DNA of 35,653 nt, from the IMG/VR virus record IMGVR_UViG_3300041997_000045, positions 1 through 35,653 of that record. One strand, given 5' to 3'. Made by a program: the position numbers and the translations under genes. Within the stretch, counting starts at the first letter, position 1, and the number at the start of each line of letters is the position of its first letter. The notes below the pieces were generated by a model, which did not search any database, was not told where the DNA came from, and worked only from the letters and a program-made list of their open reading frames with translations. Origin of the DNA: a virus. Shown here piece by piece: positions 9,155 through 35,383 of the stretch.

Positions 9155-9373
9155 TTAGTATTTGAGCAAATCCGATACAGTGATGCCGAACGCCTCGGCT
9201 AACGCATAGATATAAGTGAGGCCCGGGTTCATGGTTCCTCTTTCTATTTTTCCGATATAGCCCGGATCTAATTCAGCTTCGTGGGATAAGTCAACCTGTG
9301 ACCACCCTCTTTCTTCACGAAGCTGCTTAATCCTCGCACCAAACTGTTTCTTAATATGTTCGTCATTCTGCAT
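9155..9373 (-). CDS. XRE-family HTH repressor
   Basis: 72 residues from ATG 9373. The longer frame starts at a TTG inside the putative control region and is rejected. IKQLREERGWSQVDLSHEAELDPGYIGKIERGTMNPGLTYIYAL-like spacing gives helix 2 (SQVDLSHEAE) and recognition helix 3 (DPGYIGKIERG) of the lambda/Cro-type domain. There is no extra effector or dimerisation domain, so it is Cro-like in size. It is divergent from the 9484 gene and shares with it a 110-base region with palindromes, as expected for a lysogeny switch. Its targets might include the late operators, but that is only a guess. Confidence 0.75.
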   Translation of the reverse strand: MQNDEHIKKQFGARIKQLREERGWSQVDLSHEAELDPGYIGKIERGTMNPGLTYIYALAEAFGITVSDLLKY

Positions 9374-9427
9374 CTGAAAGCGAACATATACAGTTTTATT
9401 ATAATTATATCTATACAATCATACCTG

Positions 9428-9711: not shown

Positions 9712-9940
9712 ATGGAAAGCTGAGACGCTTATAATCGCCGAAATAACTGGTTCTATAACGTCAGCAGAAAAAGCAGAGTTGGAGAAATTGCGGGCAGCAT
9801 CCGCTTGCGTACGTCTGCTATCTGCAGATTACTACCGCATATTATCCCCTCAGATCGATGAGATCAGGAATGTCCGGATGACCGCCGAGCAGATTATAGA
9901 GATGGCTAAAAGGAAGGAAAAAAGGGCCGAAGCCCTATGA
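9680..9940 (+). CDS. Small helical protein with FecR-N-like pattern
   Basis: 86 residues. The first half, LIIAEITGSITSAEKAELEKL then RAASACVRLLSADYYRIL, resembles the N-terminal sigma-binding helices of FecR-type anti-sigma regulators of Bacteroidota (pattern: L-I-x-x-x-L-x-G-x-I-[ST]-x-x-E-x-x-x-L). The long C-terminal FecR parts are absent. The similarity is by eye and weak. The rest is a charged helix (MTAEQIIEMAKRKEKRAEAL). It ends convergently with the 9935 gene, with 6 bases of overlap. Confidence 0.5.
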   Translation: MKNTTGERRSEWKAETLIIAEITGSITSAEKAELEKLRAASACVRLLSADYYRILSPQIDEIRNVRMTAEQIIEMAKRKEKRAEAL

Positions 9941-10135
9941 TTGATTTTGCAAATCTGATATTATCAGTTCCTCTACACGCCGACTCCACCCTCGCCCATA
10001 TTTCTTTTTGAATGCCTCCATTACTGATGGATGAACAGAAAGCGGGAAGTGTGCCCGCTTCTCAATGCCCAATTCTTCCGCAGAAAGACGGCCAGCTCCC
10101 TTCCGGGCGCCGCCGTGATTGTTGTTTTTTTTCAT
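9935..10135 (-). CDS. Small basic protein with GGARKGAGR motif
   Basis: 66 residues from ATG 10135. A frame beginning at a TTG at 10171 is longer but overlaps the upstream gene. The N-terminus KKNNNHGGARKGAGRLS carries the GGAR(K/P)GAGR element seen at the start of many small phage and mobile-element proteins. A possible ribbon-helix-helix follows (RAHFPLSVHPSVMEAF, WSRRVEELIISDL). This suggests a DNA-binding regulator. The bases before the start (10144-10155) form a tiny CCCC/GGGG hairpin that contains CCTCC. Confidence 0.6.
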   Translation of the reverse strand: MKKNNNHGGARKGAGRLSAEELGIEKRAHFPLSVHPSVMEAFKKKYGRGWSRRVEELIISDLQNQS

Positions 10136-10160
10136 ATTTAATTCCCCCGGAGGGGTACAA

Positions 10161-10358
10161 TTAATTTTCAACTACTATACCTTCAAGGATGTCATTGTAG
10201 ATTGTACGAGCTACTATCTCACCATCTTGCATAAAACAACCCTCTATCAAGTTGTTTTCATATGCCTCCTGGAAGTTTCCAGTAAAAGAATCCAGGTCCA
10301 TAAATTTTTCTACCTTCTCAGATGTTGCTGATTCGTGAATTGCGATTTGAATGTTCAT
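10161..10358 (-). CDS. Hypothetical acidic small protein
   Basis: 65 residues, ATG at 10358. It is acidic with mixed helix and strand (ATSEKVEKFMDLDSFTGNFQEAYENN, EIVARTIYNDILEGIVVEN). No family recognised. It is the first gene after a near-ideal promoter at 10398-10428 that contains a 15-bp inverted repeat, so it is probably tightly controlled, and the 9935 gene downstream is likely cotranscribed. It is a plausible regulator or antirepressor by place only. Confidence 0.6.
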   Translation of the reverse strand: MNIQIAIHESATSEKVEKFMDLDSFTGNFQEAYENNLIEGCFMQDGEIVARTIYNDILEGIVVEN

Positions 10359-10397
10359 GATTGTGAGTTTTGAGGTTTTGTTGTTTCATTAACAATT

Positions 10398-10427
10398 CAA
10401 AGATACACATTTATCTTGAAAAAACAA
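10398..10427 (-). promoter_or_regulatory. Bacteroidota-type promoter of the 10358 operon
   Basis: On the minus strand TTTG (10428-10425), 19 bases, TATCTTTG (10405-10398). This is a full match to TTG-N19-TAnnTTTG, with the expected start of transcription near 10391 and a leader of about 33 bases before the ATG at 10358. Confidence 0.8.
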
Positions 10428-10446
10428 ATAATTTTTTCAAGATAAA
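10410..10446. promoter_or_regulatory. 15-bp inverted repeat over the -33 element (operator)
   Basis: TTTATCTTGAAAAAA (10410-10424) and TTTTTTCAAGATAAA (10432-10446) are perfect inverted copies with a 7-base spacer that contains the -33 TTTG. A protein binding this dyad would cover the promoter. As RNA it would lie upstream of the start site, so it acts as DNA. Confidence 0.7.
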
Positions 10447-10458
10447 GAAATAAAATAA

Positions 10459-10478
10459 GCCGGGCATGAATACCCGGC
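10459..10478 (-). terminator. Terminator of the late operon (after the endolysin gene)
   Basis: Minus strand GCCGGG, 8-base loop, CCCGGC followed by TTATTTTATTTC. It lies 28 bases past the endolysin stop at 10506 and before the next promoter, so it ends the long late transcript. Confidence 0.7.
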
Positions 10479-10505
10479 CGCCGTACTATCAACCAAAATC
10501 TAAAA

Positions 10506-11027
10506 TCAGGGAAATATCTTTTCTGCTTGCCGGTACATTGAGAGGAAGGCTGCTATCTCTTGTTCCGTGGGCTTATACTTATTACTGCCGTGTACCCAAC
10601 TTTTTTTGTAGGCAATGGCCAGGCTGCGGGCATCATTTACCGGTTTCTTGGTAATCAACCGTTCAACCCCTCCGACGTATAACCCCCTGTTCTCTACCCT
10701 TTCGAGCAGGAAGTCAAGGCTATTTGTCCAGGATGAGAACTCGATAAACAGTCGTTCCTTTCCTGTCCCGTTCTCAACCTTTTTTACGACACCAGTGATC
10801 ATGCAATCAAACTTAGTTGGCCATCGGCCACTGTCTGCCTGGGCGCCAACGTAGTTATTGTTCAACCCCTTTGTGCCGTTGCCTGACTCAAAACGGAACA
10901 TGATGTATGCGGCTCGTTTTACCTCCGTCGGAGCATTTGCCTTTTTAAGATACTCAACCACTGCAGGCATCTCCACACTGGTCTTCCGGTAGGGGACGAG
11001 TGGTTTATCTTCATAGTAATTTTTCAT
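10506..11027 (-). CDS. Endolysin (lysozyme/glucosaminidase-like)
   Basis: 173 residues. The segment MFRFESGNGTKGLNNNYVGAQ, then DSGRW, followed by FSSWTNSLDFL and RGLYVGG, resembles phage muramidase or glucosaminidase domains in which the Glu of FESGNG would be catalytic. NNNYxGxQxDxGRW is a typical substrate-cleft pattern in the Bacteroidota phage lysins I know. No signal peptide is visible, so it should depend on a holin to reach the murein. It is the last gene of the late operon, with a 4-base overlap with 11024 and the holin candidates upstream, which supports a lysis role. Confidence 0.75.
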   Translation of the reverse strand: MKNYYEDKPLVPYRKTSVEMPAVVEYLKKANAPTEVKRAAYIMFRFESGNGTKGLNNNYVGAQADSGRWPTKFDCMITGVVKKVENGTGKERLFIEFSSWTNSLDFLLERVENRGLYVGGVERLITKKPVNDARSLAIAYKKSWVHGSNKYKPTEQEIAAFLSMYRQAEKIFP

Positions 11028-23300: not shown

Positions 23301-23652
23301 CTGCATGATTCGTTGCAGCAGCAGCTGCACGGCGGTTTGCTAGATTCTGCTGGTTGGTCTGATAGTTATATTGAGCTATTAACTGAGCGGCAGCAGTTGT
23401 GCTCCGGGATAGGCGTTCTTGTGCCGCAATAAGTTGTTCAAGTTCCGTGCGGGCTTGATTTGATGTACTACGACCTCCGCCGCCTGATCCACCATTGCCG
23501 CCACGGCCGCCGCTTCCACCCAGATTAAATTGCCCCGCCAACATGTTTAGGTTGGTGATCCTCTTCACCAACGCATCAATCAATTTGTTGAGGTGCGCAA
23601 ACTGAGCATCAATCTTTTGTTGGTCGACAAGGTTATCTATCCGATCAGGCAT
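20350..23652 (-). CDS. Tape measure protein
   Basis: 1100 residues. A Gly-rich linker (GGSGGRGGNGGSGGGG, residues 45-60) is followed by a coiled coil and a hydrophobic segment (SFLGAFGITAGVAGLAA). The region about 205-400 (FSQILGKGKVQAEELRGQIG, ERLPGAFSIAARSIG) matches the tape-measure N-terminal domain TIGR02675. Long charged helices fill about residues 560-900, and a C-terminal segment holds AQPIPRYRDGAGVKGRPSH and VNDGGKLEVLE. At about 0.15 nm per residue it would set a tail near 165 nm, meaning a siphovirus; this is a rule-of-thumb estimate. Its start overlaps the 23645 gene by 8 bases. Confidence 0.9.
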   Translation of the reverse strand: MPDRIDNLVDQQKIDAQFAHLNKLIDALVKRITNLNMLAGQFNLGGSGGRGGNGGSGGGGRSTSNQARTELEQLIAAQERLSRSTTAAAQLIAQYNYQTNQQNLANRRAAAAATNHADSLNGMRARLAQLTTQYDQYSRAQRRSREEGRQTLTQIQQLQREIRALEQATGRSQRNVGNYPKQLVGGVTSFLGAFGITAGVAGLAAASKQAFDTTVQLDSLNAALKLVSKTDAEYAENQKYLLGLSERLGLNIIDLTKAYKLFYAASTQAGLSAFATRKIFTSVAEVSANLKLSQEDTNGVLLAFSQILGKGKVQAEELRGQIGERLPGAFSIAARSIGVTEQELNKMLQKGEVIASEFLPKFAAELEKTFGRETEDKVEGLQASINRLSNEFTNVISNNQSGLNKFFAFIIDGFSGAIKLVDVFIARLSNIQPSDYRSEVLSTIAKEGRQYNGNIGPIKLFDNVGPEGFKKRYDAALNAAKASNDAYLSDFAQTSKKEQDILINGIRQSFIEARQLRNELAKTDKRSPAFFEADLTFQREADRYIRARRIMQDRSIVPSTIKTGPTEKELNAAARLREREIKAETEAAKAELQIQIERQKAIIDNEEASFAARMSASEEYYRLKNELVQAEAEGEKKRITVEIGRNRASAKEIETVDKKSNREIEKNKEELGKNVFKIIRDNADEQVRLIIASGEAQKEYLREQAISELKASEDLYQRGLITKEQYESESLRISNKYDILELYSELDTQKKILEILKQTGVPVEEQENRLLEIRNKIREKDLENTRNVEKAKTEAAKKENEKRAQYEKEFNDKLKELREEVVASAFTIAGSFFDREKNKIQDQIDQIEQRKEAEINAINASSKSEEEKAHAIALLNSQTDAQRESLQRRQRQYDQQKARFDKAKTITEIIGNTAAGVTRALRDYGPVAGAALATVVGAIGAAQLAAVIAQPIPRYRDGAGVKGRPSHKGGLAQVNDGGKLEVLESPGGDAYVAQGMNAIVDMPAGYKVHPSISDYYAATYANTFKPIPVIDSGEKVANQIVGLIAAQYKQQTSHLVSAIKDNRSIMIVKNTWSGLRTSEKHASGIRQYLNRNVFRNGERL

Positions 23653-24250
23653 TGGCTTTGGTTGTTAATTGTCGGCAATGGTTTATATACATATTAAGCA
23701 GGTTGATATACCTGCCTACGGTCGTTTTTTCTTCATCTATATGATATTGTGAGAACTTTGATAGAGCAACCAGCACTGTATCAAAGTAATTCCGATCAAT
23801 CTTTACGCCGGCGTTCGCTTTCTGTATCGCATCCAGCTGGCCCCTTCTTACTTCCATGTCCAAAAGCAACTTTTTAGACCTGGCAAGTACACGATCGAGA
23901 TCTTTCAAGTATCGTTCTGTGTCGTTGTGATTAAACGGGAAATTGTAGCCCGCTTTTTTCAGTATATCCACCAACCTTTCGTCATGCCACCACCTCAATA
24001 TCTCTACACATTTTTCGATCACAGTGTGTTTATAAAACAGCGCTTCGTATTCATTGAACAGGAACAGGAAGTCATTCCCACCGTCCTTGCTGGTCAGGTC
24101 CAAGTATTCGTCATAAATCTTAGCCCAGGCCTGTTCCAGCTCCTCCTTGCTTGCCTCTCCATCGATGAGCATTACGGAGTAATCATTATCACATAAACAG
24201 GTGATAAAGCGGGACAAAGGGAACTCACTGCAATGCTCATATACCCTCAT
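23645..24250 (-). CDS. Putative tail assembly protein
   Basis: 201 residues, helical, with no named family recognised. Visible elements are EELEQAWAKIYDEYLDL, EKCVEILRWWHDERLVDIL and KDLDRVLARSKKLLLDMEV. It is directly upstream of the tape measure with an 8-base overlap, the place of tail assembly chaperones in siphophages. No slippery frameshift site was found near its ends. The assignment is by place. Confidence 0.6.
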   Translation of the reverse strand: MRVYEHCSEFPLSRFITCLCDNDYSVMLIDGEASKEELEQAWAKIYDEYLDLTSKDGGNDFLFLFNEYEALFYKHTVIEKCVEILRWWHDERLVDILKKAGYNFPFNHNDTERYLKDLDRVLARSKKLLLDMEVRRGQLDAIQKANAGVKIDRNYFDTVLVALSKFSQYHIDEEKTTVGRYINLLNMYINHCRQLTTKANA

Positions 24251-24678
24251 ACTTTCAGGATGTTTTTAATATTTTTAACAAGAGCCGGTTGAAGATTTTG
24301 CTGCAGGTAGCCGGTACGATAAACACCGCCCAAGCCCCATATTGCTGTACTATACTTACCTTCCAGTGATGATGTTTTACTATCTTCACTGGTGATGTTG
24401 TATACCTGTGCACCAACATCAACTATCATCGCGTCATAGAAGGCTCCGGTATCTTTCAGCGTCACCCTGTCTATTGGCTGGCCTTTTGCTTTTTTGATTT
24501 TCTTCGTTAATGGCCGGTAGAAAGGCTTTATAGAGCCGCCTGTCTTCTTCTTACCCTGAAACATTTGGTCCCGTTGCCATTCAACGAGATCCTTATCGGT
24601 TTGCCGGATACTCTTACCGGTTAACTCGATCACCTTCAGCGACTCAATGCGCTTTTTCATTTCCAAAAGCCGGCACAT
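24247..24678 (-). CDS. Conserved phage protein, tail-completion-like
   Basis: 143 residues from ATG 24678; an in-frame ATG at 24660 (MKKRIES) is an alternative. The pattern is WQRDQMFQGKKKTGG, then YRPLTKKIKKAKGQPIDRV and TLKDTGAFYDAM. I have seen this QxxQ...G...G...RVTLKDTGxFY layout in Bacteroidota phage proteins between the tail tube and tape measure genes; no function is established to my knowledge. The basic middle suggests nucleic-acid or partner binding. The stop overlaps the 23645 start by 4 bases. Confidence 0.65.
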   Translation of the reverse strand: MCRLLEMKKRIESLKVIELTGKSIRQTDKDLVEWQRDQMFQGKKKTGGSIKPFYRPLTKKIKKAKGQPIDRVTLKDTGAFYDAMIVDVGAQVYNITSEDSKTSSLEGKYSTAIWGLGGVYRTGYLQQNLQPALVKNIKNILKV

Positions 24679-24693
24679 ACAAGAAAGGGCGGG

Positions 24694-24951
24694 CTACTCG
24701 CCGCCCTCGGTTTTGTCTTTGGATATGATCTGGTTTCTTAATTTCTTAACTCTTCCAGGGGGTACGAGATCTTCTACATTAACCGGCGCAGGCAAAATAC
24801 CTGCTGCCGGCTCACTTACTAATCCCAAAGAGGTAGCGAAGTATTTTATCTCGTCTTCGGTCAGTTGATCCTTATACCGTTCTACGAACTGTGCATAGGT
24901 CCAATCTTTGACGGAAGAATGGAAAGACATATGTATGATGGGCTTTCTCAT
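24694..24951 (-). CDS. Small tail-region protein
   Basis: 85 residues. An N-terminal helical half (SVKDWTYAQFVERYKDQLTE, DEIKYFATSLGL) and a Pro-rich, charged tail (PAAGILPAPVNVEDLVPPGR). It follows the tail tube gene by 3 bases. Not recognised; a tail assembly chaperone part is possible by place, as such genes are often small and helical. Confidence 0.6.
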   Translation of the reverse strand: MRKPIIHMSFHSSVKDWTYAQFVERYKDQLTEDEIKYFATSLGLVSEPAAGILPAPVNVEDLVPPGRVKKLRNQIISKDKTEGGE

Positions 24952-24954
24952 GGC

Positions 24955-25911
24955 TTACCCTCTTAATACCTGAATAGTATTTGATTCGAATCCACTTACA
25001 TCTGCAGCGTCCAGCACCGTGGGATCTGCTAGTGACACATTTACCAATCCGGCAGATGTTCCCGGGTAATCTGGATCAGCAGCACTCAGGGTAATGGTGA
25101 AGGCCTTCGCATTGGCATCAGCGGCTACACTCGTGATTGTGATTGCATTGCCAGTAGTAGCATTTGTAACCACCCACAAACCAGCAGCAGCAAGCTGAGT
25201 GCTATACAGGTCATACAGGTTTGCATAATCGCAACCGGTAAGCGCCTGGATCTTAAACACGCCTGCGGCAGACGCTCCGGTTTGTTTGAGGGCGATATTT
25301 TGCAGACCTGTAATTTCCTCTGGATTGAAGTCAGCAATAACGAATCCCAAGCTATCATTCAGATATTTGGAATCTATGTCAAAATAAACCGTATACGCAG
25401 TTACGTTCGCCCCGTCATTGAGTTTCCATTTAGGTACATGGAAGGTCAGCGGCACGCCGGCCAAGCCAGGGTTACCATCAGATGCGGTCTTCTTGGTCCC
25501 AATGATCTGCCACTTATCGTCATAGAACAACCATTCAGATGATCCCTGAAAGTTCATTGACCGGAGAGCGATGTGTAAACACATCCCACCATCAACATAC
25601 TGGAATGTCCAGCGGTAATTACCATCGCGAATAGGTACCTGCTTGCCATATCCAAGAGTCTGGAAGACTGTTTCTTCAGAATTATCGGTAACTGCCTGGA
25701 AGCCGTGAAGAGGGAAAATACGGTTGGACTTACTCGGCGCCAGCCGCATCGCCTCTAATGTGGTCCTCAAAGCATCGAGCTCTGCTTGAGTGAATACTTT
25801 ACCTTTAGGTACCCGGATTGCACCGGCGGCCTTGCTGAAATCAAATACACAGCTACCATAGCCGGTATTCTTTAATATGCTCTGGCAAACAACCTGATTA
25901 AGAGTAGCCAT
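24955..25911 (-). CDS. Putative major tail (tube) protein
   Basis: 318 residues. It begins MATLNQVVCQSILKNTGYG, a short helix with strand-rich middle (YVDGGMCLHIALRSMNF, VTAYTVYFDIDSKYL) and an Ala/Thr/Ser/Asp-rich C-terminal half (TSVAADANAKAFTITLSAAD). This resembles a tail tube domain followed by an Ig-like or similar decoration. It lies between connectors and tail assembly genes, the usual place of the tail tube. I have no signature motif, so the assignment is by order and composition. Confidence 0.6.
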   Translation of the reverse strand: MATLNQVVCQSILKNTGYGSCVFDFSKAAGAIRVPKGKVFTQAELDALRTTLEAMRLAPSKSNRIFPLHGFQAVTDNSEETVFQTLGYGKQVPIRDGNYRWTFQYVDGGMCLHIALRSMNFQGSSEWLFYDDKWQIIGTKKTASDGNPGLAGVPLTFHVPKWKLNDGANVTAYTVYFDIDSKYLNDSLGFVIADFNPEEITGLQNIALKQTGASAAGVFKIQALTGCDYANLYDLYSTQLAAAGLWVVTNATTGNAITITSVAADANAKAFTITLSAADPDYPGTSAGLVNVSLADPTVLDAADVSGFESNTIQVLRG

Positions 25912-25920
25912 ATAAAAGTT

Positions 25921-26478
25921 TTAGCAATTTTTGATGTTGTACAATATTTCGAAGTCGAATCGGAAGCAATGGAAAGGATGCATATCCCGGAATTTCAGCC
26001 CTGCCATGTTCTCCTGTTCGGAGAGCCTAGTACCGGCATATTCCTCGAATACTTCATCTATTCCTAACCTGATTCCCTGCAATGTGAATCCCTGGTAGCC
26101 ATGCTGAACGATCGTCTGTACGTCCTTTCTAACTTCTTCATCCCCTCTATGCTGGACTTGCTTTAGCGACTCGATGTTGACAAAGAATATCAGATGAACA
26201 TTGGCAGTATTGACCACCTTATATTTCATATTGCCCGTCAAACCAAAGAAGCTGATTGCTGCATATCTGTCATCGAGATAGACTTCTTTGTATTCGTTGT
26301 TACCTGTATACACTTCAGCCACATAACCCGCTTCTAATTGATTTCTATAGCACCTACCATAACACTGATATTGACCCGTGGCAAGATTCCACTCGTCCAG
26401 CAACCTATCATGCAGATAGGTCTGAAATCGCTGGATAGGGATGTCTATCCCCAGGGGTTGTGTCTTGGTATAAAGCAT
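25921..26478 (-). CDS. Head-tail connector / tail terminator-like protein
   Basis: 185 residues. Visible are PLGIDIPIQRFQTYLHDRLL, YGRCYRNQLEAGYVAEVY and EYKEVYLDDRYAAISFFG. It resembles conserved proteins of Bacteroidota siphophages placed just before the tail tube gene. It overlaps the upstream gene by 34 bases, the largest overlap in this operon. Head-tail joining or tail termination is inferred from place. Confidence 0.6.
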   Translation of the reverse strand: MLYTKTQPLGIDIPIQRFQTYLHDRLLDEWNLATGQYQCYGRCYRNQLEAGYVAEVYTGNNEYKEVYLDDRYAAISFFGLTGNMKYKVVNTANVHLIFFVNIESLKQVQHRGDEEVRKDVQTIVQHGYQGFTLQGIRLGIDEVFEEYAGTRLSEQENMAGLKFRDMHPFHCFRFDFEILYNIKNC

Positions 26479-27551
26479 GAGTTATCAGTTATGGTCGTTG
26501 ATATGGCTTTCGCTTTCGGGAAGAAATTGTCGTGAAGCCTTTTCAGCTCTCTCCGCAGTTGATTCTTTAAGCCGGATGAATAAGGCATTTCGGGGGTAGC
26601 CATGTCAAGGTTAAGATCATTGTACAATCGCTGTGCAGAGACTTCAGCTATGCGCTGAGTACTGTTTGACCGCTGACCATGTACAACTCTTTCCACCACC
26701 ATGGCCGCCATTTGCAGGCCGATCGCCTTGTCGAAAACCTGAGGGCTACGGATTATCACTTCTGTGAAGTCCACAAGAGAACTGAATTCGATATTCAGCC
26801 CGTGCGTCCTGTTCGTGATAAACGGATTGTAGCGGAGAAAATAAGTCTGAGTTGGCACTACGTTGGCCTCGATCTGCCGCACACCGTAGCAGTTACCACA
26901 ATTCCATGTGTATGGGCGCTCGTCATATGCCTGGACATCATCTAGATCATCCTGGAAGTATCCCACATAGTAAATTGAGGACTTCGATGCATTTGACATG
27001 TAGTTGAGCGTCCAGTCTTCAGGTGTGACAACCACCTGATTATCGGTCACCGTGGTGACTTCGAGCGTTTTAATGGCCGTCCTTTTGGCGCCATCGAACA
27101 AATAGAGGTTGAATGTTTTGTCGCCATTAAACGTCAGCGTGACAGCATTGATACGTACCGACTTGCTTGGATCTGCCGCAATATTGATCTCACGACCAAC
27201 GAAACGGCCAACATTCGGTATCAAGACCGGCCGCTGATCGCCGCGTTCAAACTCCATGCGCTGTTCGATAACCTCGGGCTGATCGAATATGCCGTCGAGA
27301 ACAGAGAGAATGCAATCTTCCTGCAGGTCTTTCAGGTAGTCGTTAAATTGCTCATCTGTAATAGTCACATCACCATTACACACTTCTTTGATATTTGGTA
27401 TAGTGACCATTGCATGAAATCCTTCAAAGTGCCTTCCTGACTTGCTGGTAGTGTTTTCTTCATTGAGGATATCAACATACCCTGGCTGAATCGGTTGTTT
27501 GAATCCGATTCTGCCAAATAGTGCCGCTATGACCTCGTCTCGACGGTACAT
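26445..27551 (-). CDS. Head-tail adaptor-like structural protein
   Basis: 368 residues, MYRRDEVIAALFGRIGF start. It contains strand-rich segments (VRINAVTLTFNGDKTFNLYL) and a pair of Cys (TWNCGNCYGV), and ends in a helical part (GLKNQLRRELKRLHDNF). No family recognised. It lies between the secreted 27553 protein and the connector at 25921, so it is probably a head completion or neck protein. One base separates it from the 27553 stop. Confidence 0.6.
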   Translation of the reverse strand: MYRRDEVIAALFGRIGFKQPIQPGYVDILNEENTTSKSGRHFEGFHAMVTIPNIKEVCNGDVTITDEQFNDYLKDLQEDCILSVLDGIFDQPEVIEQRMEFERGDQRPVLIPNVGRFVGREINIAADPSKSVRINAVTLTFNGDKTFNLYLFDGAKRTAIKTLEVTTVTDNQVVVTPEDWTLNYMSNASKSSIYYVGYFQDDLDDVQAYDERPYTWNCGNCYGVRQIEANVVPTQTYFLRYNPFITNRTHGLNIEFSSLVDFTEVIIRSPQVFDKAIGLQMAAMVVERVVHGQRSNSTQRIAEVSAQRLYNDLNLDMATPEMPYSSGLKNQLRRELKRLHDNFFPKAKAISTTITDNSCFIPRHNPWG

Positions 27552-27552
27552 T

Positions 27553-27960
27553 TTAGTTGCTGTATTTGCGTTCCACGTGATATAATCTTACTTGGGCCGA
27601 CATCGTACCAGAGCCGGTAACGACGATTCGGTAGTAAACTGCCGGCGCAGTCACCTTAGCGAATAGTGCCGTATTGGTGGTCACGTTGGCCAAGGTCAAT
27701 GTGTCGCCCGCTGGTAGGTAGTTTGTGCCATCGAGACTGTAATAAAGGATCGCCGTACCAGCTACAGTGCCAGATATCTTGGTGATCACCGGTTGCACAC
27801 CGATGGCTGAGTAGCCAGCGGTTGCGGTGAACGTCTTGGTTACTGTACCGGCATTAACCACCGTGTCACCGGCTATGAGCGGCATAAGTGTTGCTGACTG
27901 AGCGCAGGAGGCCGTTACCATACCAATCACCAGCGCAACAGCGAGAAGTAAACGTTTCAT
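27553..27960 (-). CDS. Signal-peptide protein next to the major capsid gene
   Basis: 135 residues with a clear signal sequence: KRLLLAVALVIGMVTASCAQ. The Cys in TASC might be lipidated, but -3 is Thr rather than Leu, so simple cleavage after ASCA is equally possible. The mature part is a beta-sandwich-like domain (AILYYSLDGTNYLPAGDTLT, YYRIVVTGSGTMSAQVRLY). It sits in the late operon right after the major capsid gene, the place of head decoration or head completion proteins. An export signal there is odd: see findings. Confidence 0.65.
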   Translation of the reverse strand: MKRLLLAVALVIGMVTASCAQSATLMPLIAGDTVVNAGTVTKTFTATAGYSAIGVQPVITKISGTVAGTAILYYSLDGTNYLPAGDTLTLANVTTNTALFAKVTAPAVYYRIVVTGSGTMSAQVRLYHVERKYSN

Positions 27961-27987
27961 GTGTTATGCTTTAATAAGGTGATTGTA

Positions 27988-29037
27988 TTAGGATGCCTGG
28001 CCGATCAGATGAACAACAGAGTCACCAACTACAGACAACGGAGGTAATGCATACGCTATCGTTAGGGTGATCTCCCATTGATCTACGATATCCTGAGTAC
28101 TACCGCCGGTAGTGTTAGCGGAAGTGTCGGCTCTCTGAGTATACATGGAGATATCGGCACGAGCACCGGAGCCGAACGGGTCTTCCTGAGTGCCAAGTGT
28201 GCCAATTTCGTTTTCTCCAGCGTTAACACCAGTTTTGTTCAGTTGATCATTCCAGTACATGCCTGCAAATGATTTGGATGGCATGAATAGGGCCGATCCA
28301 AGCGGGTAAGCACTGGAAATAACGTCCTGTGTGGTGCCTATGGAAGCGCCACCGAACTGGAAGGAGGTGTTCGTGTTGTTCGCTGTTCCCTGCTGCATCT
28401 GGAATTCGAATTCCGCTGCTGTCTGCAGATCAGCTATCACGTCCAGGGAGCCGGTAAAATACCTGGCTGCCATGTATATCTTAGCCATCTGCATGAAACG
28501 CGCCTTACGGTCCTGACCGATTTCCAGTGCGTAGTTGGTATCGTTGTATGTGCCTGGATTGGCGGACGCTATTTGAGGGTTGATGGTTGCTGCAGGGAGC
28601 TGCATCCTGTTCGCAATCAGGAAGGCAAGGGCGCTGGTATCATGCCTGTTACGCAGGTTCTTCCAGTGTTCCTCATAAAGATTATTCCACATCGTCTGAT
28701 AGGTCAGCACGTTGTTCTGTGCAATCTTACGAGGCAACGAAAAGGTTTCCACATGAGACACATACACCAGCTCAACCTTTCCGCTATCACCATAAGTGCC
28801 GGTGTGGTTGTATGCTTTGGTGGTGCCAGACTGCTGGCCAATCTTTGTCTGATAGTAAATTTCAACGGGGCGCTTGTCTGACTTTCTGAGGTCAACGGCA
28901 TTGGGGATGGAGTATTCCTGGTTCTTGAGTGCCAACTCCATCACTGTAGGCAGCTTGCGTCGCTGTTCAGGTGCTTGATTCCTCTTGGAAACAATAGCCT
29001 GACCTTTAGCAAGCACGCTCGTAGCGTAGTTCGCCAT
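27988..29037 (-). CDS. Major capsid protein
   Basis: 349 residues from ATG 29037 (MANYATSVLAKGQAIVSKRN). The frame also holds an ATG at 29109, inside a leader hairpin, which would add 24 atypical residues. The protein lacks a signal peptide, has a long helical region (LYEEHWKNLRNRHDTSALAF, RKARFMQMAKIYMAARYF) and ends in a strand (DQWEITLTIAYALPPLSVV). Its place after portal and scaffold-like genes, its size, and its separate promoter and structured leader support the call. No proteolytic delta domain is obvious; assembly would rely on the 29856 protein as scaffold. Confidence 0.75.
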   Translation of the reverse strand: MANYATSVLAKGQAIVSKRNQAPEQRRKLPTVMELALKNQEYSIPNAVDLRKSDKRPVEIYYQTKIGQQSGTTKAYNHTGTYGDSGKVELVYVSHVETFSLPRKIAQNNVLTYQTMWNNLYEEHWKNLRNRHDTSALAFLIANRMQLPAATINPQIASANPGTYNDTNYALEIGQDRKARFMQMAKIYMAARYFTGSLDVIADLQTAAEFEFQMQQGTANNTNTSFQFGGASIGTTQDVISSAYPLGSALFMPSKSFAGMYWNDQLNKTGVNAGENEIGTLGTQEDPFGSGARADISMYTQRADTSANTTGGSTQDIVDQWEITLTIAYALPPLSVVGDSVVHLIGQAS

Positions 29038-29078
29038 GGTACAATGTGATTGTGTGTGAAAGAATGTTGTGAGTTGTT

Positions 29079-29159
29079 GGAGTACCACTCCGGAGTTGTG
29101 GGATACCATCCCGAGAAGAACCAGGTACCACCTGGGCGAATTAGCGGGGAGCTAATTCG
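29079..29159 (-). promoter_or_regulatory. Structured mRNA leader of the capsid gene: four hairpins, three with UGGUA apex
   Basis: Reading on the minus strand from the likely start of transcription: hairpin 1 (29159-29137) has a 9-bp stem CGAATTAGC/GCTAATTCG and loop TCCCC. Hairpin 2 (29135-29121) is CCAGGT-GGT-ACCTGG, hairpin 3 (29112-29100) GGGAT-GGT-ATCCC and hairpin 4 (29091-29079) GGAGT-GGT-ACTCC. The last three differ in their stems but keep perfect pairing and the same TGGTA apex, as expected for a selected RNA structure. The capsid ATG is 42 bases further on. UACCA at 29041-29037, overlapping the start codon, is complementary to the apex. Confidence 0.75.
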
Positions 29160-29162
29160 AAT

Positions 29163-29189
29163 CAAAGGTATAGATAAAATCTATTACAA
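29163..29189 (-). promoter_or_regulatory. Promoter and operator of the capsid gene
   Basis: Minus strand TACCTTTG (29170-29163) is an exact TAnnTTTG -7 match; TTG at 29189-29187 lies 16 bases upstream, shorter than the ideal 19. The spacer holds ATAGATAAAATCTAT (29170-29184), identical to a site in the terminase promoter. Transcription would start near 29157, at hairpin 1. Confidence 0.7.
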
Positions 29190-29272
29190 TAAAATAATCG
29201 ATAAAATAAATTTATTTCATTCTTTGGGGGTGCGCGCCAAAAGTGAGATACATAACCGTCCCTAACATGTGG

Positions 29273-29524
29273 TCATTCAAACGGTTTTTTGTTGCATGAA
29301 TTGCACCATAAATATGACAGCCCATTAATATCCATCATTTTTTCTGGCTTCTTTCCACAATCATAGCAAACCTTATTTTCCTCATACGCTTGTATATCAC
29401 GTAGCATGTTTTCTTTTCTTAACGGTCTATACCGCTCGAAATTCTCTATAAGTTCGCGGCTTTGTGACAAAAGTTGCTCTGCATGCTTTAGCCGTTCAAT
29501 GGCCTGTTCGCCTGTTATAGACAT
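29273..29524 (-). CDS. Zinc-ribbon small protein
   Basis: 83 residues. The N-terminal 50 residues are helical (EQAIERLKHAEQLLSQSREL). The C-terminal part has CYDCGKKP and LWCNSCNKK, two CxxC pairs about 20 residues apart, a zinc ribbon. It lies between the scaffold-side genes and the capsid promoter, preceded by a terminator and a weak -7 match (TATCTTTA, minus strand 29548-29541), so it may be expressed separately. DNA-binding late regulator or assembly factor are both possible. The 235 bases after it hold the capsid promoter, a 14-bp palindrome (29204-29217) and the leader. Confidence 0.65.
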   Translation of the reverse strand: MSITGEQAIERLKHAEQLLSQSRELIENFERYRPLRKENMLRDIQAYEENKVCYDCGKKPEKMMDINGLSYLWCNSCNKKPFE

Positions 29525-29557
29525 AATCTATCGTTTGCTATAAAGATACGAAAGAAA

Positions 29558-29575
29558 GCCCCGTTTTACCGGGGC
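29558..29575 (-). terminator. Terminator between the interrupted gene and the zinc-ribbon gene
   Basis: Minus strand GCCCCG, 6-base loop (GTAAAA), CGGGGC, then TTTCTTTC. It lies 9 bases after the stop at 29584. With the capsid promoter downstream it divides the late region into a packaging/scaffold unit and a capsid/tail/lysis unit. Confidence 0.65.
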
Positions 29576-29583
29576 CTTTGGGG

Positions 29584-29856
29584 TTATTTTACGAATGGGT
29601 ATTGTGTACCTATAGAAACAGGCGGCGTACCGGTGCCGGTGACATAAAGCCACACCACACCAGTACGTGCCACTTCTTCTTTTTCTGAATCAGTCAATTG
29701 CCAACAAGATATGATTGTCGGGGCGGTATTGCCCTGCGTGTCGATGGGCACATTACCTTTATAGACAGGCAAGCTTTGACACTGTTCATCGGTTTAGCCT
29801 ACGGGCTTACCGAACGTAAAGTTTGATTCTGGGAAGTTGATTGGCTGCATCGGCAT
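29584..29856 (-). pseudogene. Small conserved late protein interrupted by in-frame TAA
   Basis: From ATG 29856 or 29850 the frame reads MQPINFPESNFTFGKPVG, then TAA (29796-29794), and continues in the same frame as TDEQCQSLPVYKGNVPI and further to PFVK at 29584. The part after the stop also reads as normal protein (IISCWQLTDSEKEEVARTGV). The two halves together look like a family of about 90-residue proteins with INFPE near the start and a CWQL...VWL element later, which I recall from Bacteroidota phages. A TTG at 29772 could restart translation for 62 residues. Single-base change, suppression or sequence error are possible. Confidence 0.6.
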
Positions 29857-30680
29857 TAGTTATAAAAGTCAAAATCAGGTACGTCTTTCGTTACGGTATC
29901 GAGGTATTTGGAGAACTCAGGCGAAACCGTGTTACCGCCTGGATTATCTTTTAACCATGCTTCCTGAGCAGCAGATAACGTCTTTATTCCGCCTGCGCCG
30001 CCCGTAACTGTTGTATCATTACCACCCCGGCCACCAGCAGTACCGGTACTTCCTACCCATTTACGCTCAGTGAAGTAGTCAGCCAGCACCTTGTCCGCTG
30101 CGAGAGGGTTTTGCGTTGCTTTATCACGGACAACATCGCCATTGCGCTTTACAACAGTTTTACCATCCACCTCTTCAAAGGATAGATCCATTTTAGCCAA
30201 TATAAGGCGTTCACTGTCCTTTAAATCGGCCGTTCTACCTGCTGGGAACCAAGAGATCAACTGAGTATCAAAGGCGGCTGATTTAGCTGCCTTTTCAAGA
30301 TCTCCTACCTTTGCTGTCAACGTTTCTTTGTCCCTGATAAGGTTTGTTACCTGCTCTTTCAGAACAGGATCACCCTTAGAAGCCTTATCAGTTACCAGGG
30401 TCACGATTTTATCGAGTTCCTTAGTGTCATCCTCAATGGAGAATGCTTTCTTCAGCGCCTTTGCCGCCAACTCTTTCCCTTTGGTTTCACCTTCCTTTTC
30501 ACCAAGTTTCTTACCCTCGTTAACCTTATTAGCATCACGAGCTTCGAGATCTTCTTTTTTGAAGACCTCTATTTCAGGTAGAGCATAGTCCACCTCATTT
30601 TCTTCCTTTGCTGCTGCTATCAGCTTATCTGTATCAAGCCCCCAGGACTTTAGTTTTGCAATTACTTCAGCTTTTAACAT
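29856..30680 (-). CDS. Scaffold-like protein
   Basis: 274 residues, acidic, with long helices and a coiled coil (AFSIEDDTKELDKIVTLV, LKEQVTNLIRDKETLTAKVG). Near the N-terminus is EKEGETKGKELAAKALKKAF; the middle has a FPAGRTADLKDSERLIL segment; then a Gly/Thr-rich linker and a short C-terminal tail. Position before the capsid gene and composition match phage scaffolds of the GP20 type. The start is preceded by ACAGTGAACA. The stop TAA overlaps the ATG of the interrupted gene by 1 base. Confidence 0.75.
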   Translation of the reverse strand: MLKAEVIAKLKSWGLDTDKLIAAAKEENEVDYALPEIEVFKKEDLEARDANKVNEGKKLGEKEGETKGKELAAKALKKAFSIEDDTKELDKIVTLVTDKASKGDPVLKEQVTNLIRDKETLTAKVGDLEKAAKSAAFDTQLISWFPAGRTADLKDSERLILAKMDLSFEEVDGKTVVKRNGDVVRDKATQNPLAADKVLADYFTERKWVGSTGTAGGRGGNDTTVTGGAGGIKTLSAAQEAWLKDNPGGNTVSPEFSKYLDTVTKDVPDFDFYN

Positions 30681-30714
30681 TGTTCACTGTTTTTAGGGAT
30701 TAGTAAGTGGTTGA

Positions 30715-31248
30715 TTATTTCAGCAGGTAATACCTGCCAGAATTACGCACCTGCGCGTTCATTTCCAGCGCGGTCTTAACATCTACTCTCGTTTGATGGA
30801 TCGGCCTGTCGTTGATGATGTCAATGCCGGTCATATCCTTGGGTGTATCCTTCAGCCCCGAATAACGTTCGGTGATCACCGGGTTAACCTTGTACACGAG
30901 AAAATCGTGCATGTCATGCCATGGCAAGCCATGAACATACGCCTCGTACTTCTTGAAGTTCTCACCGGTCAGGTTCTTATAATCAAACTTCGGATGACCT
31001 TTACTTTGTGCTGGGGCTTCGCCTTCCGTTTCACCTGGCGGGTTGACGTTGGGCGCGGAGTGATCGCCACCAGCAGCAGCTGTCACGGTCGGCAACGGAT
31101 TGGGGGACGTGCCGGTAAACAGTTCAGCGAGTAAAGCATTCGCTTCTTCTTCGGTATTACCGTCTTCCAGAATCAGCTTTTTCAGTTCTTCTGCGGTTGT
31201 CCCCTGCTCTTTAAGGGATGCAAACCTTTTCTTTTTCAGATGATGCAT
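30715..31248 (-). CDS. Hypothetical late protein
   Basis: 177 residues. The N-terminal part is helical and basic/acidic (LKKKRFASLKEQGTTAEELK), followed by a Pro/Gly/Ala-rich linker (TAAAGGDHSAPNVNPPGETE) and a globular end (DYKNLTGENFKKYEAYVHGL, DMTGIDIINDRPIHQTRVDV). Not recognised. By place between portal and scaffold, it is possibly a head morphogenesis protein or an internal capsid protein. No protease motif is visible. Confidence 0.65.
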   Translation of the reverse strand: MHHLKKKRFASLKEQGTTAEELKKLILEDGNTEEEANALLAELFTGTSPNPLPTVTAAAGGDHSAPNVNPPGETEGEAPAQSKGHPKFDYKNLTGENFKKYEAYVHGLPWHDMHDFLVYKVNPVITERYSGLKDTPKDMTGIDIINDRPIHQTRVDVKTALEMNAQVRNSGRYYLLK

Positions 31249-31266
31249 TGTTTTGCGTTTTGAAGG

Positions 31267-31497
31267 TTACGAAGCATAATGAGCTTCAATCAATTTGTCA
31301 ATCTCCTCGCATGTTAGTGTGGTGCATAGTACCTGTCCTTCAGACAGGTAAATAAATGATCCCCAGTAATAGCCAGGGTGATAGGCAGCGATTGAAGCAG
31401 GATTTACCCGCGCCAAAACCTCCTTATCTTCTTTTGCTGTCTGCCCGTTCTGATCAATATTCTCAGCCGGTAAGACGATTTTAATGTTCACGTACAT
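31267..31497 (-). CDS. Hypothetical late small protein
   Basis: 76 residues: a strand (MYVNIKIVLPAENI), a loop, then Tyr/Trp-rich AAYHPGYYWGSFIYLSEG and a C-terminal helix (TCEEIDKLIEAHY). It follows the portal gene by 22 bases. No family recognised. Confidence 0.6.
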   Translation of the reverse strand: MYVNIKIVLPAENIDQNGQTAKEDKEVLARVNPASIAAYHPGYYWGSFIYLSEGQVLCTTLTCEEIDKLIEAHYAS

Positions 31498-31519
31498 ATA
31501 TTGGGATTTAGCGAGTGAC

Positions 31520-33259
31520 TTAGTTTAAAGCTGGCTTTACTGGCTCCGGTTCTGGCAGATTCTTAGCCTTTACGAACTCCTTAAGCTTTTCGCGGAGCTT
31601 ATTCGTGTCAGTAACGATCACCTCTATATCCGAGATGGTACTGTACCATTCTCCGAAGTAGAGCTTACAGTTAATATCCAGCTGGTCAGTAGCCACTGCC
31701 TTTACCTCTCCTATTCTTAAATGCGGGAAAGGCTCTACATACAGCAGTTTAAGCCTGTATGCCAGCTCCATAGGGCTGTTCTGATAGATGGCATGGTAAT
31801 ACTTCTCCAACGCCTCATAAAGGGCGCTTTCCGGCGCTCCTTTCGTTCTCAGGTCAAGGTATTGATCCATCAGCTGATCGGGCGTCTCCAGGACATAATA
31901 GCGTCCGTAGGCAATAGCCGCTTTCTTGAACCCTTCCCGGAACCAGAATTGACCAATAAATTCTGCGAATAATATTTCTGTCTTTTCTGCCCAGTCAGCA
32001 GTTTTGTTTAACCGGCTGTACCGGGGCTGCAGGTCGGTCATTGTCTTAGTTGCCGTTTCCTGCACTTCCTGGACCTTTTTGGCACCTGTCACCTGTTGCG
32101 GCTGTGATGTACCCCAGTAGGTGAGTTCTATCAAATTTGCCAGGTCTGCCAGGCTCGTATCCTGCTTCTCCCATCCCTGGACGTCAGGTGATACGTAGCC
32201 GAAGAAATTGCGGAAGTCAAACCTGCTTTCAGCCATTTCCAGCGGGAACCGGGCAACATCGGACACTTTTGTTTGCATCTTATATCCAGTTCCCTTATCA
32301 GCACCTGCGGACGAACAATCAGGGCAGGCTTTACCAGCCAGGTAGCCAGTGCCGGCGCATTTCCCGCAGGTCATAAGCGGCTCAACTGCCTTGCTGAATC
32401 CGTGGTATTTCTTCTGCAGGTCACGTACGGAGCGGTCGTAAAGGAAACAGTCTGCCAATTCGGTTGTATAATCCAGCGGGGAAAGGAAACATTCCGGATC
32501 ATTAAACTGCATGAGGTCAGAGATAATAAACCCTGGCACACGCTTCCAGATATTCTCTATGGTGTCATCTACCGGCATAACAGGGTCTACTTCATTACCC
32601 GACCATTTAACGATGATATCCTTTGCGTCATCAATAAACCGATAGTAAGTAGTCTTTGTATTCTTGGTGAACTGCTTCAGCTCATCATCCTTTACACCGA
32701 AAGACAATGCCTCACCGGCAGTCAGTCTGAAGGCAACATGCTCCAGGCGGCGGCCGGTGGTATCGTAATTGTATATAGAGTAAATGGATTTGTAAGTAGG
32801 GTAAGTTTTGGGCGTCTGGGGATTAACACTGTTGGGGTCCATCTTCTCCACCTCCATCAGGAAGACGCCCATGGGATCACACCGGTATGCCGGCAAAGCA
32901 AATGTTTGTATCCACTTCCGGAGGCTCATACCATACCTCACATTCTCCAGGACAGCGTTCATCTGCTTTTCCCGGCCTTCCGGCAGGTTGAACGAAGTTG
33001 AACCGCCCTTTGCACTGAAGATCATATCTTCCTGCTGCAGGAGGCGGCTGTATAAGTCTTTATTGGATATGGCATACTGTTTACGAACCTTATATGCCTC
33101 AATGTTCTCAAAGTAGTCACAACGCGGAAGAGCTGACGACATACCGACACCCTGCACGTGCAACATGAGCTTATCAGCCATCTTGCGCCCCTTCTCTATC
33201 CGGCCCTTTGATGGATTGAGCTTTATAATGTCTGAAATCTGTTCGAAAGTGTATGTCAT
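31520..33259 (-). CDS. Portal protein with zinc-binding Cys motif
   Basis: 579 residues from ATG 33259 (MTYTFEQISDII). The 33313 frame start is a TTG and is rejected. Directly after the large terminase, size and the mixed helix pattern fit the portal. Residues 298-325 hold TCGKCAGTGYLAGKACPDC, a CxxCxGxG...CxxC motif like the DnaJ zinc centre or a rubredoxin-like knuckle, in the middle of the fold. That is not part of the usual portal core. The C-terminal region (HLRIGEVKAVATDQLDIN) and the Pro-rich end are normal. It probably forms the dodecameric DNA channel. Confidence 0.75.
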   Translation of the reverse strand: MTYTFEQISDIIKLNPSKGRIEKGRKMADKLMLHVQGVGMSSALPRCDYFENIEAYKVRKQYAISNKDLYSRLLQQEDMIFSAKGGSTSFNLPEGREKQMNAVLENVRYGMSLRKWIQTFALPAYRCDPMGVFLMEVEKMDPNSVNPQTPKTYPTYKSIYSIYNYDTTGRRLEHVAFRLTAGEALSFGVKDDELKQFTKNTKTTYYRFIDDAKDIIVKWSGNEVDPVMPVDDTIENIWKRVPGFIISDLMQFNDPECFLSPLDYTTELADCFLYDRSVRDLQKKYHGFSKAVEPLMTCGKCAGTGYLAGKACPDCSSAGADKGTGYKMQTKVSDVARFPLEMAESRFDFRNFFGYVSPDVQGWEKQDTSLADLANLIELTYWGTSQPQQVTGAKKVQEVQETATKTMTDLQPRYSRLNKTADWAEKTEILFAEFIGQFWFREGFKKAAIAYGRYYVLETPDQLMDQYLDLRTKGAPESALYEALEKYYHAIYQNSPMELAYRLKLLYVEPFPHLRIGEVKAVATDQLDINCKLYFGEWYSTISDIEVIVTDTNKLREKLKEFVKAKNLPEPEPVKPALN

Positions 33260-33263
33260 TGAC

Positions 33264-34703
33264 TTAGTTTGAGTACCCGTAAAACTTCTTCTGTCTGGTG
33301 CTATATGTGGCAAATTCCGATGGCAGCAATGTTGTAATGAAGTAGCGTTTAGCGTCGCTAAAGTGACCGTATCTCTCGAAGGTTTGTCCTGTATCCTTAT
33401 TCTTTTCCTTTGTCTTTAATATCCCTCCATTCATATCTTCTTTGGTCATTGTGTAATCCTCAATAGACTTCCTGCATTTGGTGTCAATCACTATGCTCCA
33501 TCCCTCATAATTTGACTCGTAGATCTCGTTTATAAAGCCGCCGCTGATCGCTACACCTGGAGCAGACTTCCCGACCCTGTTTACATATCGAACTGGCGTT
33601 TTAGCGAATTCACCCAAGTATTTATCAAAGAAGCTGCGCCCTTCGTCATCCTCTGTAGATTTGGCATTTGCTGAAGGATCTCCATAGATAAAGACAATCC
33701 CTTCATGTCCTTGCTTTAGTAGCCATTCCAGCGTCTTTTTAGCTGCTTTGGAGGCCGTATTGTTTGGATATTCACATGGCAGCTCATCAATCTGTTTAAG
33801 CACTTTATTTGCCATATCTACCTGCCATATCCCAACTGTAATGTATGGCGTTGAGTTGTTATCCAAGGTGATATGTAGAGCATCCTGCACATATCCAACA
33901 CTCCTCGTGTGCTGGATCTCGTCAAAACACTTCCAGAATGATCCGCCAGTACGTCGGAAGCCCCAAAGGCCCAAGGTGTATACCTGGTACCAGTAGGCAT
34001 TGTTCTTACTGTTCTTATAGCCCTCATACAGGGCTTTTCTTTGTGGTTTACAGTAAGGATTGTCCTTGTATGTGGAATGAGTAACTCGGATCTTAAAGGG
34101 CACTTCCCCTACGTCTGGTACGTCAATTACCTTGGTCCAGGTGAAGGAAAGTTTAGTTGTGTGCTCGAAATACTCTTTGTAAAGCCAGAAATCAGTATAG
34201 TTACCGTCACACTCTGGGTTAAAGCTGAACCAAGTCTTTACCTGCTGGTTGGCCCTCAATGAGGTAAGGATAACTACGAAGTCCTCGCTGGTGATTTGGT
34301 TGCCTTCTTCTATCCAACAGTGAGACGGATTGTTGAAAGACTTAATACGTCCTACATCGTCCAGTCCACGACCATAGAACCCGTTCTTATTCGCCTTACA
34401 GATGATCTCTAATCTCGTCTCATTGAAGGTGAAGAGGTGTTTTAACCCCCACTCATCAATAACCGACTTTATTAGGTCGTATTGGCTACTTCGCACTGTA
34501 TTAAGCACCTTTCTAACAAGGAGGCACTTGAAGTACTTTTGCCGCATACAGTCAATAACCAGCTGCATCGCTATGTGCCGGCTCTTACCAGAGTCACGGC
34601 CACCATACAAGAAGTCTATATCAAAGAACTCAGTATCATGAACCAGATGGCGGTAAACCTCCAGAAAGATCTCATCATCCAATTCTATGTTCACTACCGG
34701 CAT
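33264..34703 (-). CDS. terL: Terminase large subunit
   Basis: 479 residues. The Walker A is GGRDSGKS (34-41) and Walker B is HCWIEEGNQ with Glu132-Glu133 as acid pair. The nuclease half shows Asp281 (TLDNN), Asp342 (YGDPSAN) and Asp450 (FSDAKRYF), fitting an RNase H-like nuclease. This is the Terminase_3 (PBSX-like) type. It would package phage DNA through the portal, cutting concatemers. It starts on the last base of the small subunit's stop and lies 4 bases before the portal. Confidence 0.9.
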   Translation of the reverse strand: MPVVNIELDDEIFLEVYRHLVHDTEFFDIDFLYGGRDSGKSRHIAMQLVIDCMRQKYFKCLLVRKVLNTVRSSQYDLIKSVIDEWGLKHLFTFNETRLEIICKANKNGFYGRGLDDVGRIKSFNNPSHCWIEEGNQITSEDFVVILTSLRANQQVKTWFSFNPECDGNYTDFWLYKEYFEHTTKLSFTWTKVIDVPDVGEVPFKIRVTHSTYKDNPYCKPQRKALYEGYKNSKNNAYWYQVYTLGLWGFRRTGGSFWKCFDEIQHTRSVGYVQDALHITLDNNSTPYITVGIWQVDMANKVLKQIDELPCEYPNNTASKAAKKTLEWLLKQGHEGIVFIYGDPSANAKSTEDDEGRSFFDKYLGEFAKTPVRYVNRVGKSAPGVAISGGFINEIYESNYEGWSIVIDTKCRKSIEDYTMTKEDMNGGILKTKEKNKDTGQTFERYGHFSDAKRYFITTLLPSEFATYSTRQKKFYGYSN

Positions 34704-35278
34704 TAACCACCGCTCTTTTTGATTATAATGTTTAGGTTGACACCCTCATCAGGTTTCTCGCTCCACATACCCAAATGACGCCCTATTAGCTCCAAAGACT
34801 TTATTTTGTCATGAAGCTTCAGCTCTATTCCTTCTTTGGTCTGTTTGATTGATGCTACAGCGCGGAGTTTCTTCTTATCGACCTTTTCAGTCTCGAAAAT
34901 ATCAACTGTTTTAGCGGTCCAAGTATTTGTTATAGGCTTACCCTCATCGTCCAGCCCCAGCACTTCTGTATGGGTTTGTTCCTCCACTTTCAGGAAATCG
35001 TCGATCCTGGCGAAACCGACAGACGCCAATTCCTCCAGGACTCGATCTGCCTTAACTTCAGTTCGGGCTGACCGTTTATCCATCAATTCCTTTATGTATG
35101 CTTGAACCTTAACATTTGACAACAAACGGGATGCTTGCTGTTGAGCGGTTGCTGTGGAGTATTTAGCGCGAATAGCCGCCTTTAGACCATTGAGATCAAT
35201 GATATATTCCTCGCAAAACCTTTTCTGTTTTGGAGGAATAGAGGATGTGTCAGATATGTGATTATCCTTTTCTTTCAT
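34703..35278 (-). CDS. terS: Terminase small subunit
   Basis: 191 residues. PKQKRFCEEYIIDLNGLKAA, then IRAKYSTATAQQQASRLL and KVQAYIKELM match the Terminase_2 (PF03592) N-terminal HTH domain, which binds pac or cos DNA. The C-terminal half is helical (VDKKKLRAVASIKQTKEGIE). It is the first gene of the packaging unit, about 40 bases after a strong promoter. It overlaps the large subunit start by one base. Confidence 0.85.
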   Translation of the reverse strand: MKEKDNHISDTSSIPPKQKRFCEEYIIDLNGLKAAIRAKYSTATAQQQASRLLSNVKVQAYIKELMDKRSARTEVKADRVLEELASVGFARIDDFLKVEEQTHTEVLGLDDEGKPITNTWTAKTVDIFETEKVDKKKLRAVASIKQTKEGIELKLHDKIKSLELIGRHLGMWSEKPDEGVNLNIIIKKSGG

Positions 35279-35316
35279 AATTGCAGCCGGGTAGTTATCT
35301 CGGAATGCTGTAGATA

Positions 35317-35346
35317 CAAAGATATAGATAAAATCTATTTATTCAA
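35317..35346 (-). promoter_or_regulatory. Late promoter and operator of the terminase operon
   Basis: Minus strand TTG (35346-35344), 19 bases, TATCTTTG (35324-35317): full match to the Bacteroidota consensus. The spacer contains ATAGATAAAATCTAT (35324-35338), the same palindrome as in the capsid promoter at the same place next to the -7 element. Further half-sites TAGATAC lie at 35311-35317 and 35356-35362. Confidence 0.85.
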
Positions 35347-35383
35347 CAAACAATATAGATACGCTTCACGACTGCGTATAAAA

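Follow-up and report, generated by a model that had tools for sequence, protein, structure and literature searches.

A palindrome adjoining the -7 box of late phage promoters as the putative binding site of a late regulator

Why should the terminase and capsid promoters of a single phage carry the same 15 base pairs? The window analysed here, the whole 35,653-nt stretch of IMG/VR virus record IMGVR_UViG_3300041997_000045, holds ATAGATAAAATCTAT without mismatch at both promoters (Table 1), and an earlier note, made from the sequence alone, had proposed that one regulator controls the two units together. Its description of the repeat was borne out: the 15-mer is exact in both places, both promoters lie on the minus strand, where the site reads ATAGATTTTATCTAT and is followed immediately by the -7 box, and the identity extends to 22 of 23 bases (29163-29185 versus 35317-35339), taking in CAAAG(G/A)T on one flank and T on the opposite flank. 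The site, ATAGAT-N3-ATCTAT, is a perfect palindrome containing inverted TAGA half-sites (TAGA-N5-TCTA), and in both promoters its last T is also the first base of the -7 box. The terminase promoter is followed by the gene for the small subunit and then by those for the large subunit and the portal protein. On the capsid side the listed ORF starts at 29109; as the related capsid proteins begin at MPNYA/MANYA, the true start is probably at 29037, which would give a leader of about 120 nt. The window also contains a third, imperfect copy, located 9 bp downstream of the -7-like TATCTTTA, for which no counterpart was found at the matching place in the relative G001.

Table 1. Positions of the genes, promoter elements and candidate regulators in the window.
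Feature	Coordinates	Strand	Remarks
Terminase small subunit	34703..35278	-	phrog_51, E 5e-44
Terminase large subunit	33264..34703	-	phrog_3717, E 4e-34
Portal protein	31520..33313	-	phrog_7376, E 7e-36
Major capsid-like virion protein	27988..29109	-	phrog_7231, E 2e-23
15-bp palindrome, major capsid gene promoter	29170..29184	-	kept at the capsid promoter of L004, L005, L006
15-bp palindrome, small terminase gene promoter	35324..35338	-	counterpart in relatives L004, L005, L006
Third copy, 1 mismatch	29517..29531		overlaps start codon of small ORF 29273-29524
-7 box TACCTTTG, capsid promoter	29163..29170	-	fits TAnnTTTG; one base in common with palindrome
-7 box TATCTTTG, terminase promoter	35317..35324	-	fits TAnnTTTG
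Candidate -33 element TTTGTTG, terminase promoter	35344..35350	-	TTG 19 bp from -7 box
Weak palindromic partner ATAAAATAAATTTAT	29201..29215	(+ strand letters)	31 bp upstream of capsid site, score 7.7
Half-site ATAGAT	35355..35369		31 bp upstream of terminase site, score 0.2, weak
XRE-family protein	9155..9418	-	candidate of the earlier note; disfavoured
Ribbon-helix-helix-like small protein, candidate regulator	9935..10135	-	66 residues

Such a repeat could be a coincidence in AT-rich promoter DNA. When the window was shuffled 100 times each under order-1 and order-2 Markov models, 42% and 52% of the shuffles, respectively, contained one or more repeated 15-mers, and 13 are present in the window itself, so that the claim that two copies of a 15-mer are not expected by chance does not stand for the bare 15-mer. 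It does stand for the longer match: only one pair of 23-base stretches in the window agrees with at most one mismatch, and no such pair arose in 60 shuffles. For the palindrome ATAGATNNNATCTAT, again with at most one mismatch, about 0.17 occurrences would be expected in the window and three are found. With the bias at the centre of the intergenic copies described below, these counts leave coincidence a negligible probability, and it is refuted by three relatives in which both promoters have kept the site.

These relatives came from IMG/VR protein searches, in which a related capsid protein turned up at 10 loci and a related large terminase at 11. L004, L005 and L006, whose capsid proteins are 78-83% identical to that of the window, each have one copy in the terminase promoter and one in the capsid promoter, the terminase-promoter copies of L005 and L006 with one mismatch each; all four phages of the closest group, made up of these three and the window, thus have the site at their TerS and MCP promoters. 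Among 19 related whole records, ATAGANWWWNTCTAT was found in the same three and the control pattern in none. The motif is absent from relatives with capsid proteins 63-71% identical, and a search for alternative palindromes in five relatives without the site yielded nothing beyond weak AT-rich sequences, the best being TATTTANNNTAAATA in G006. Conservation across relatives holds for the three close ones and fails at the larger distance: among the sequences compared, the palindrome is conserved near the window, and its use by the phage family as a whole is inconstant because the more distant relatives lack it.

The capsid loci have a second feature in common. The leader of the capsid gene (29079-29160, minus strand) can be folded into three tandem short hairpins, with a closing U-A or U-G pair and the loop GGU (GGC in one), whose stems vary freely among phages. 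Twenty such hairpins were counted in 8 leaders against 0.72 in shuffles (they are seen in the window and in the leaders of L004-L009, the third hairpin of L004 lying beyond the stretch read), and the leader of L012 has no hairpin by the same rule, showing altered loops only. The hairpins occur also in relatives without the palindrome and gave no Rfam match at E<=1; they have the look of an RNA element, so far undescribed, that would govern capsid synthesis. Two further repeats were noted in the window. An 18-bp direct repeat (27846-27863 and 34695-34712) has one copy inside the gene after the capsid gene and the other where the large terminase gene begins, and may reflect chance or be the trace of a recombination; a 16-bp sequence occurs three times (4184, 4393, 4568) in adjacent small early ORFs, which look like recent duplicates.

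The palindrome reaches well beyond the closest group, into phages whose packaging and capsid modules are different. ATAGATWWWATCTATANCTTTG matches 13 stretches of the viral collection, and copies with at most one mismatch number 7 in the 44 kb of G030, 6 in the 57 kb of G021 (two of which are the same sequence at both record ends) and 5 in the 28 kb of G022, three records in which the control pattern scores 0; the phages have 2-7 sites each, as compared to 0-0.4 in Markov shuffles. A de novo search for recurring intergenic palindromes ranked the same sequence first in G021 and G030. Most sites precede late genes (TerS, TerL, portal, head protease, major tail, capsid), the unit at 47847 of G021 beginning with a ParB/DNA methyltransferase-like gene with the terminase behind it, and the first genes below several sites having no assigned function. 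Named phages were searched with a 35-base promoter piece, and the matches were mostly at chance level. The stretch of laban6-1 that was read contains no site, even when one mismatch is allowed; in Maribacter phage Panino a single exact palindrome lies upstream of a gene for an endonuclease. The early and lysis genes at positions 1-11000 of the window are shared with G021 (3300048928_000366; 21900-32400). The terminase and capsid modules of the two phages differ, a clear case of module exchange, and the late palindrome is present in both.

A looser pattern, ATAGATNNNATCTATANNTTTG, in which the centre was left free, gave 43 matches in 42 stretches, 23 of them intergenic and 20 inside ORFs of at least 100 residues, as divided by a simple ORF caller. 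Of the intergenic matches, 20 have an ORF on the same strand within 400 bp downstream. Their centre is TTT or AAA in 22 cases and mixed A/T in 1, whereas none of the 16 distinct coding matches has a TTT/AAA centre (Fisher p = 4.5e-10, viral contigs). Since the search pattern did not specify the centre, we read this bias as a real constraint that marks the intergenic copies as functional, part of which could stem from the AT-richness of intergenic DNA, although centres of mixed A and T are almost lacking as well.

If the motif occurs in several phage lineages in which no common regulator was detected, the phages might be borrowing the site of a Bacteroidota host regulator. The host genomes argue against this. 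In 61 Bacteroidota genomes ATAGATWWWATCTAT matched 9 sites and the control 5; 5 of the 9 fall inside predicted genes and none has nearest genes that look like late phage genes; the extended pattern was found in 0 of 395 Bacteroidota genomes. In the genomes sampled the palindrome would thus be no clear host motif, being absent or little commoner than the control and not clearly enriched. A host regulon was accordingly rejected, and we regard a borrowed host regulator as very improbable. Common control of the terminase and capsid units has good comparative support in the retention of the site at both promoters in close relatives and, more widely, in a motif that stands before late genes in other lineages and is no clear host motif. 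Our literature search, mostly outside the subscription literature, found no published account of a late-gene control site in Bacteroidota phages.

The position of the palindrome within the promoter gives further clues. The -33 element of Bacteroidota sigma-A promoters is TTG or TTTG. At this place the capsid promoter has TTTA, and a TTG at a plausible -33 distance was seen in about 7 of 23 promoters read by eye. The -7 boxes of both window promoters conform to the Bacteroidota sigma-A consensus TAnnTTTG, as given in the available part of PMC9723704. A perfect -7 box lies near 22 of the 30 listed sites that have a gene within 300 bp downstream, and in 18 of these 22 the gap is -1 (the others being 0, +1, +8 and +9, the last two about one turn away from -1), a preponderance to be read with the fact that many of the phages were chosen by a pattern that includes the -7 box; of the 8 perfect-box sites that this pattern does not cover, only 4 have the -1 gap. 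The box is poor or missing at G002 11780, G022 21746 and G027 8215.

Sites also come in spaced sets. In a scan of offsets from 15 to 120 bp with a score matrix built from 40 sites, a second copy scored best at 31 bp (mean -22.3 versus -29.5, sd 1.7; both members of a pair count, and one place in G021 counts twice). Such copies lie at 17280/17311/17342 in G030, at 47798/47829 in G021 and, 32 bp apart, at 13431/13463 in G021; in the window both promoters have a weak counterpart (Table 1). In some promoters the partner is found upstream, whereas in others (G021 47829, G030 12693 and 31147) it lies past the -7 box on the downstream side, and the extra copies 31 bp away have no adjoining -7 box. 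A weaker second copy is thus often present at 31 bp, a distance of three helical turns.

A mostly fixed place beside the -7 box would also be expected if the motif were no operator at all and reflected the sequence preference of a phage-modified polymerase or a phage sigma factor. G002 encodes a 162-residue protein (44170-44658, minus strand) that resembles, by eye only, a sigma-70 factor of the ECF type, which to our knowledge is unusual in a phage. However, a sequence preference accounts poorly for a perfect palindrome and for 31-bp copies that have no -7 box next to them, and we consider this explanation unlikely by a wide measure.

We infer instead that a dimeric late regulator specified by the phage would bind the palindrome and act as an activator, a joint claim to which we give about an even chance. 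The sequences themselves show where the sites lie, that they are conserved, that in the genomes sampled they are confined to phages and that they are phased by 31 bp; binding by a protein, its origin from the phage and activation are our reading of these facts. In such a scheme, a phage-specified protein would bind, as a dimer or a dimer of dimers, to the palindrome upstream of and touching the -7 box, and would help the host sigma-A RNA polymerase at promoters that mostly have no good -33 element, so that transcription of the terminase and capsid units would fall in one and the same stage. With the weaker copy at 31 bp, two units of the protein could bind the same face of the DNA.

This arrangement is akin to that of late promoters in phage P1, where the repeat sits near -22. 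According to the available part of PMC10695390, 11 late promoters of P1 carry a 9-bp inverted repeat that is bound by the activator Lpa, and positive control is described there as the invariable rule for late genes in well-studied phages. Here, too, one inverted repeat is common to several late promoters of the same phage, and separate late units each have one such short repeat; these are switched together in P1 (PMC10695390, same part) and would be so here. The site in our phages differs from that of P1 in its sequence, in its length (15 bp versus 9 bp), in the Bacteroidota sigma-A type of its promoters and in its 31-bp partner copies. MerR-type operators are palindromes placed between two promoter elements. 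The present site likewise lies between promoter elements, with the difference that the -33 element is often missing. Activation is in our analysis somewhat more likely than repression because of (i) the shared palindrome of the P1 kind, (ii) the mostly fixed distance from the -7 box, (iii) the often poor -33 element and (iv) the positive control ascribed to late genes of well-studied phages. Several findings weigh on the other side: the downstream partner copies stand where an activator is not expected; about 7 of the 23 promoters do have a plausible -33 TTG; much of the preference for gap -1 stems from phages chosen by a pattern with the -7 box in it; the -7 box is poor or missing at some sites; no regulator family common to all lineages was found; and the relatives with capsid proteins 63-71% identical are without the motif.

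The same site and a phage regulator could also serve repression, the protein covering the -7 and -33 region and holding the late units off until it is removed. The half-sites of the Arc operator are TAGA boxes spaced by N5. The overlap of the palindrome with the -7 box fits a repressor, as do pairs of copies that flank the -7 box at G021 47798/47829 and G030 12662/12693 and 31116/31147, and the double site at G021 13431/13463 (with relatives L111 and L114), which precedes a small ribbon-helix-helix-like gene in the manner of autorepression. TAGA-N5-TCTA, with its two inverted TAGA half-sites, resembles the TAGA box of the 21-bp operator of the P22 Arc repressor, as described in the available part of PMC12645479. 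It departs from the Arc operator in being fully palindromic and in having its centre constrained to TTT/AAA, and a ribbon-helix-helix protein was not found in each site-bearing phage. A repressor is difficult to reconcile with promoters that mostly have no clear -33 element, which makes a default-on state doubtful, with a place relative to the -7 box that is mostly fixed or one turn off, as a mere blocker would not need, and with the absence of the motif from lysogeny-switch regions; we view repression as possible and rather unlikely.

The switch regions in question are the intergenic regions of divergent HTH genes in G002, G003, G024 and G021 (the window being a linear fragment whose own switch lies outside the contig). 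CI-type operators would place copies in the divergent repressor/early region; all four regions lack the palindrome, and a lysogeny repressor was therefore rejected as the regulator. The divergent HTH pair of G021 (45286-45437; L049) has GTTGGA-N3-TCCAAC twice, 30 bp apart, palindromes which, from their letters, are laid out like the late site and differ from it in sequence.

Which protein might bind the late site? The XRE-family protein at 9155, put forward by the earlier note, fares badly: its integrase-side counterparts in G002, G021 and L119 differ, by eye, in their predicted recognition helices despite an identical palindrome in the three phages, a divergence that fits poorly with a single site. 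Nor does any copy of the palindrome lie at the gene itself. HTH_3 matches were found in 6 of 9 records, and the domain is thus not universal. The small protein encoded at 9935-10135 seems a somewhat better candidate. It is 79% identical to a G021 protein and 53% to one of L119, a record found through this protein alone that also holds one exact site, which has no good -7 box. It looks like a ribbon-helix-helix protein: in its model an extended stretch precedes two helices (mean pLDDT 63), and the G021 copy matches BrnA_antitoxin below the threshold (E 0.0012). In G021, L111 and L114 the small gene that comes first after the double site encodes a member of a second ribbon-helix-helix-like family; the models of both families show the same order of elements, with mean pLDDT values of 62-63. 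These A1/A2-type proteins were found only in G021, L111, L114, L119 and the window, and as neither family turned up in G002, G003, G022, G024, G027 and G030, neither is a general answer as it stands.

Database comparisons gave little more. A scan with RHH_1 at E<=1, which short divergent proteins can escape, matched 0 of 16 site-bearing and 2 of 5 site-less records, and one with BrnA_antitoxin matched 0 of 17. For the two ribbon-helix-helix-like families, a PDB fold search with the window model had no match, a sequence search of solved structures gave nothing useful, the named-phage collection contained no homologues, and no A2 member was found in 118 Bacteroidota genomes. An all-against-all comparison (simple longest-ORF caller, phmmer at 1e-3, with short divergent proteins again able to escape) revealed no regulator family that is common to all site-bearing lineages and missing from the five site-less relatives.

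Taken together, these observations make it conceivable, with a probability that we place a little short of even, that one late-promoter palindrome, ATAGAT(TTT/AAA)ATCTAT, is used across Bacteroidota phages with unrelated packaging and capsid modules and is read by one undescribed family of small, fast-changing phage regulators, possibly of the ribbon-helix-helix type. The palindrome could serve as a DNA bait for fishing out the putative regulator, and a motif that marks late promoters would reveal the late units of uncultured phages from sequence alone.
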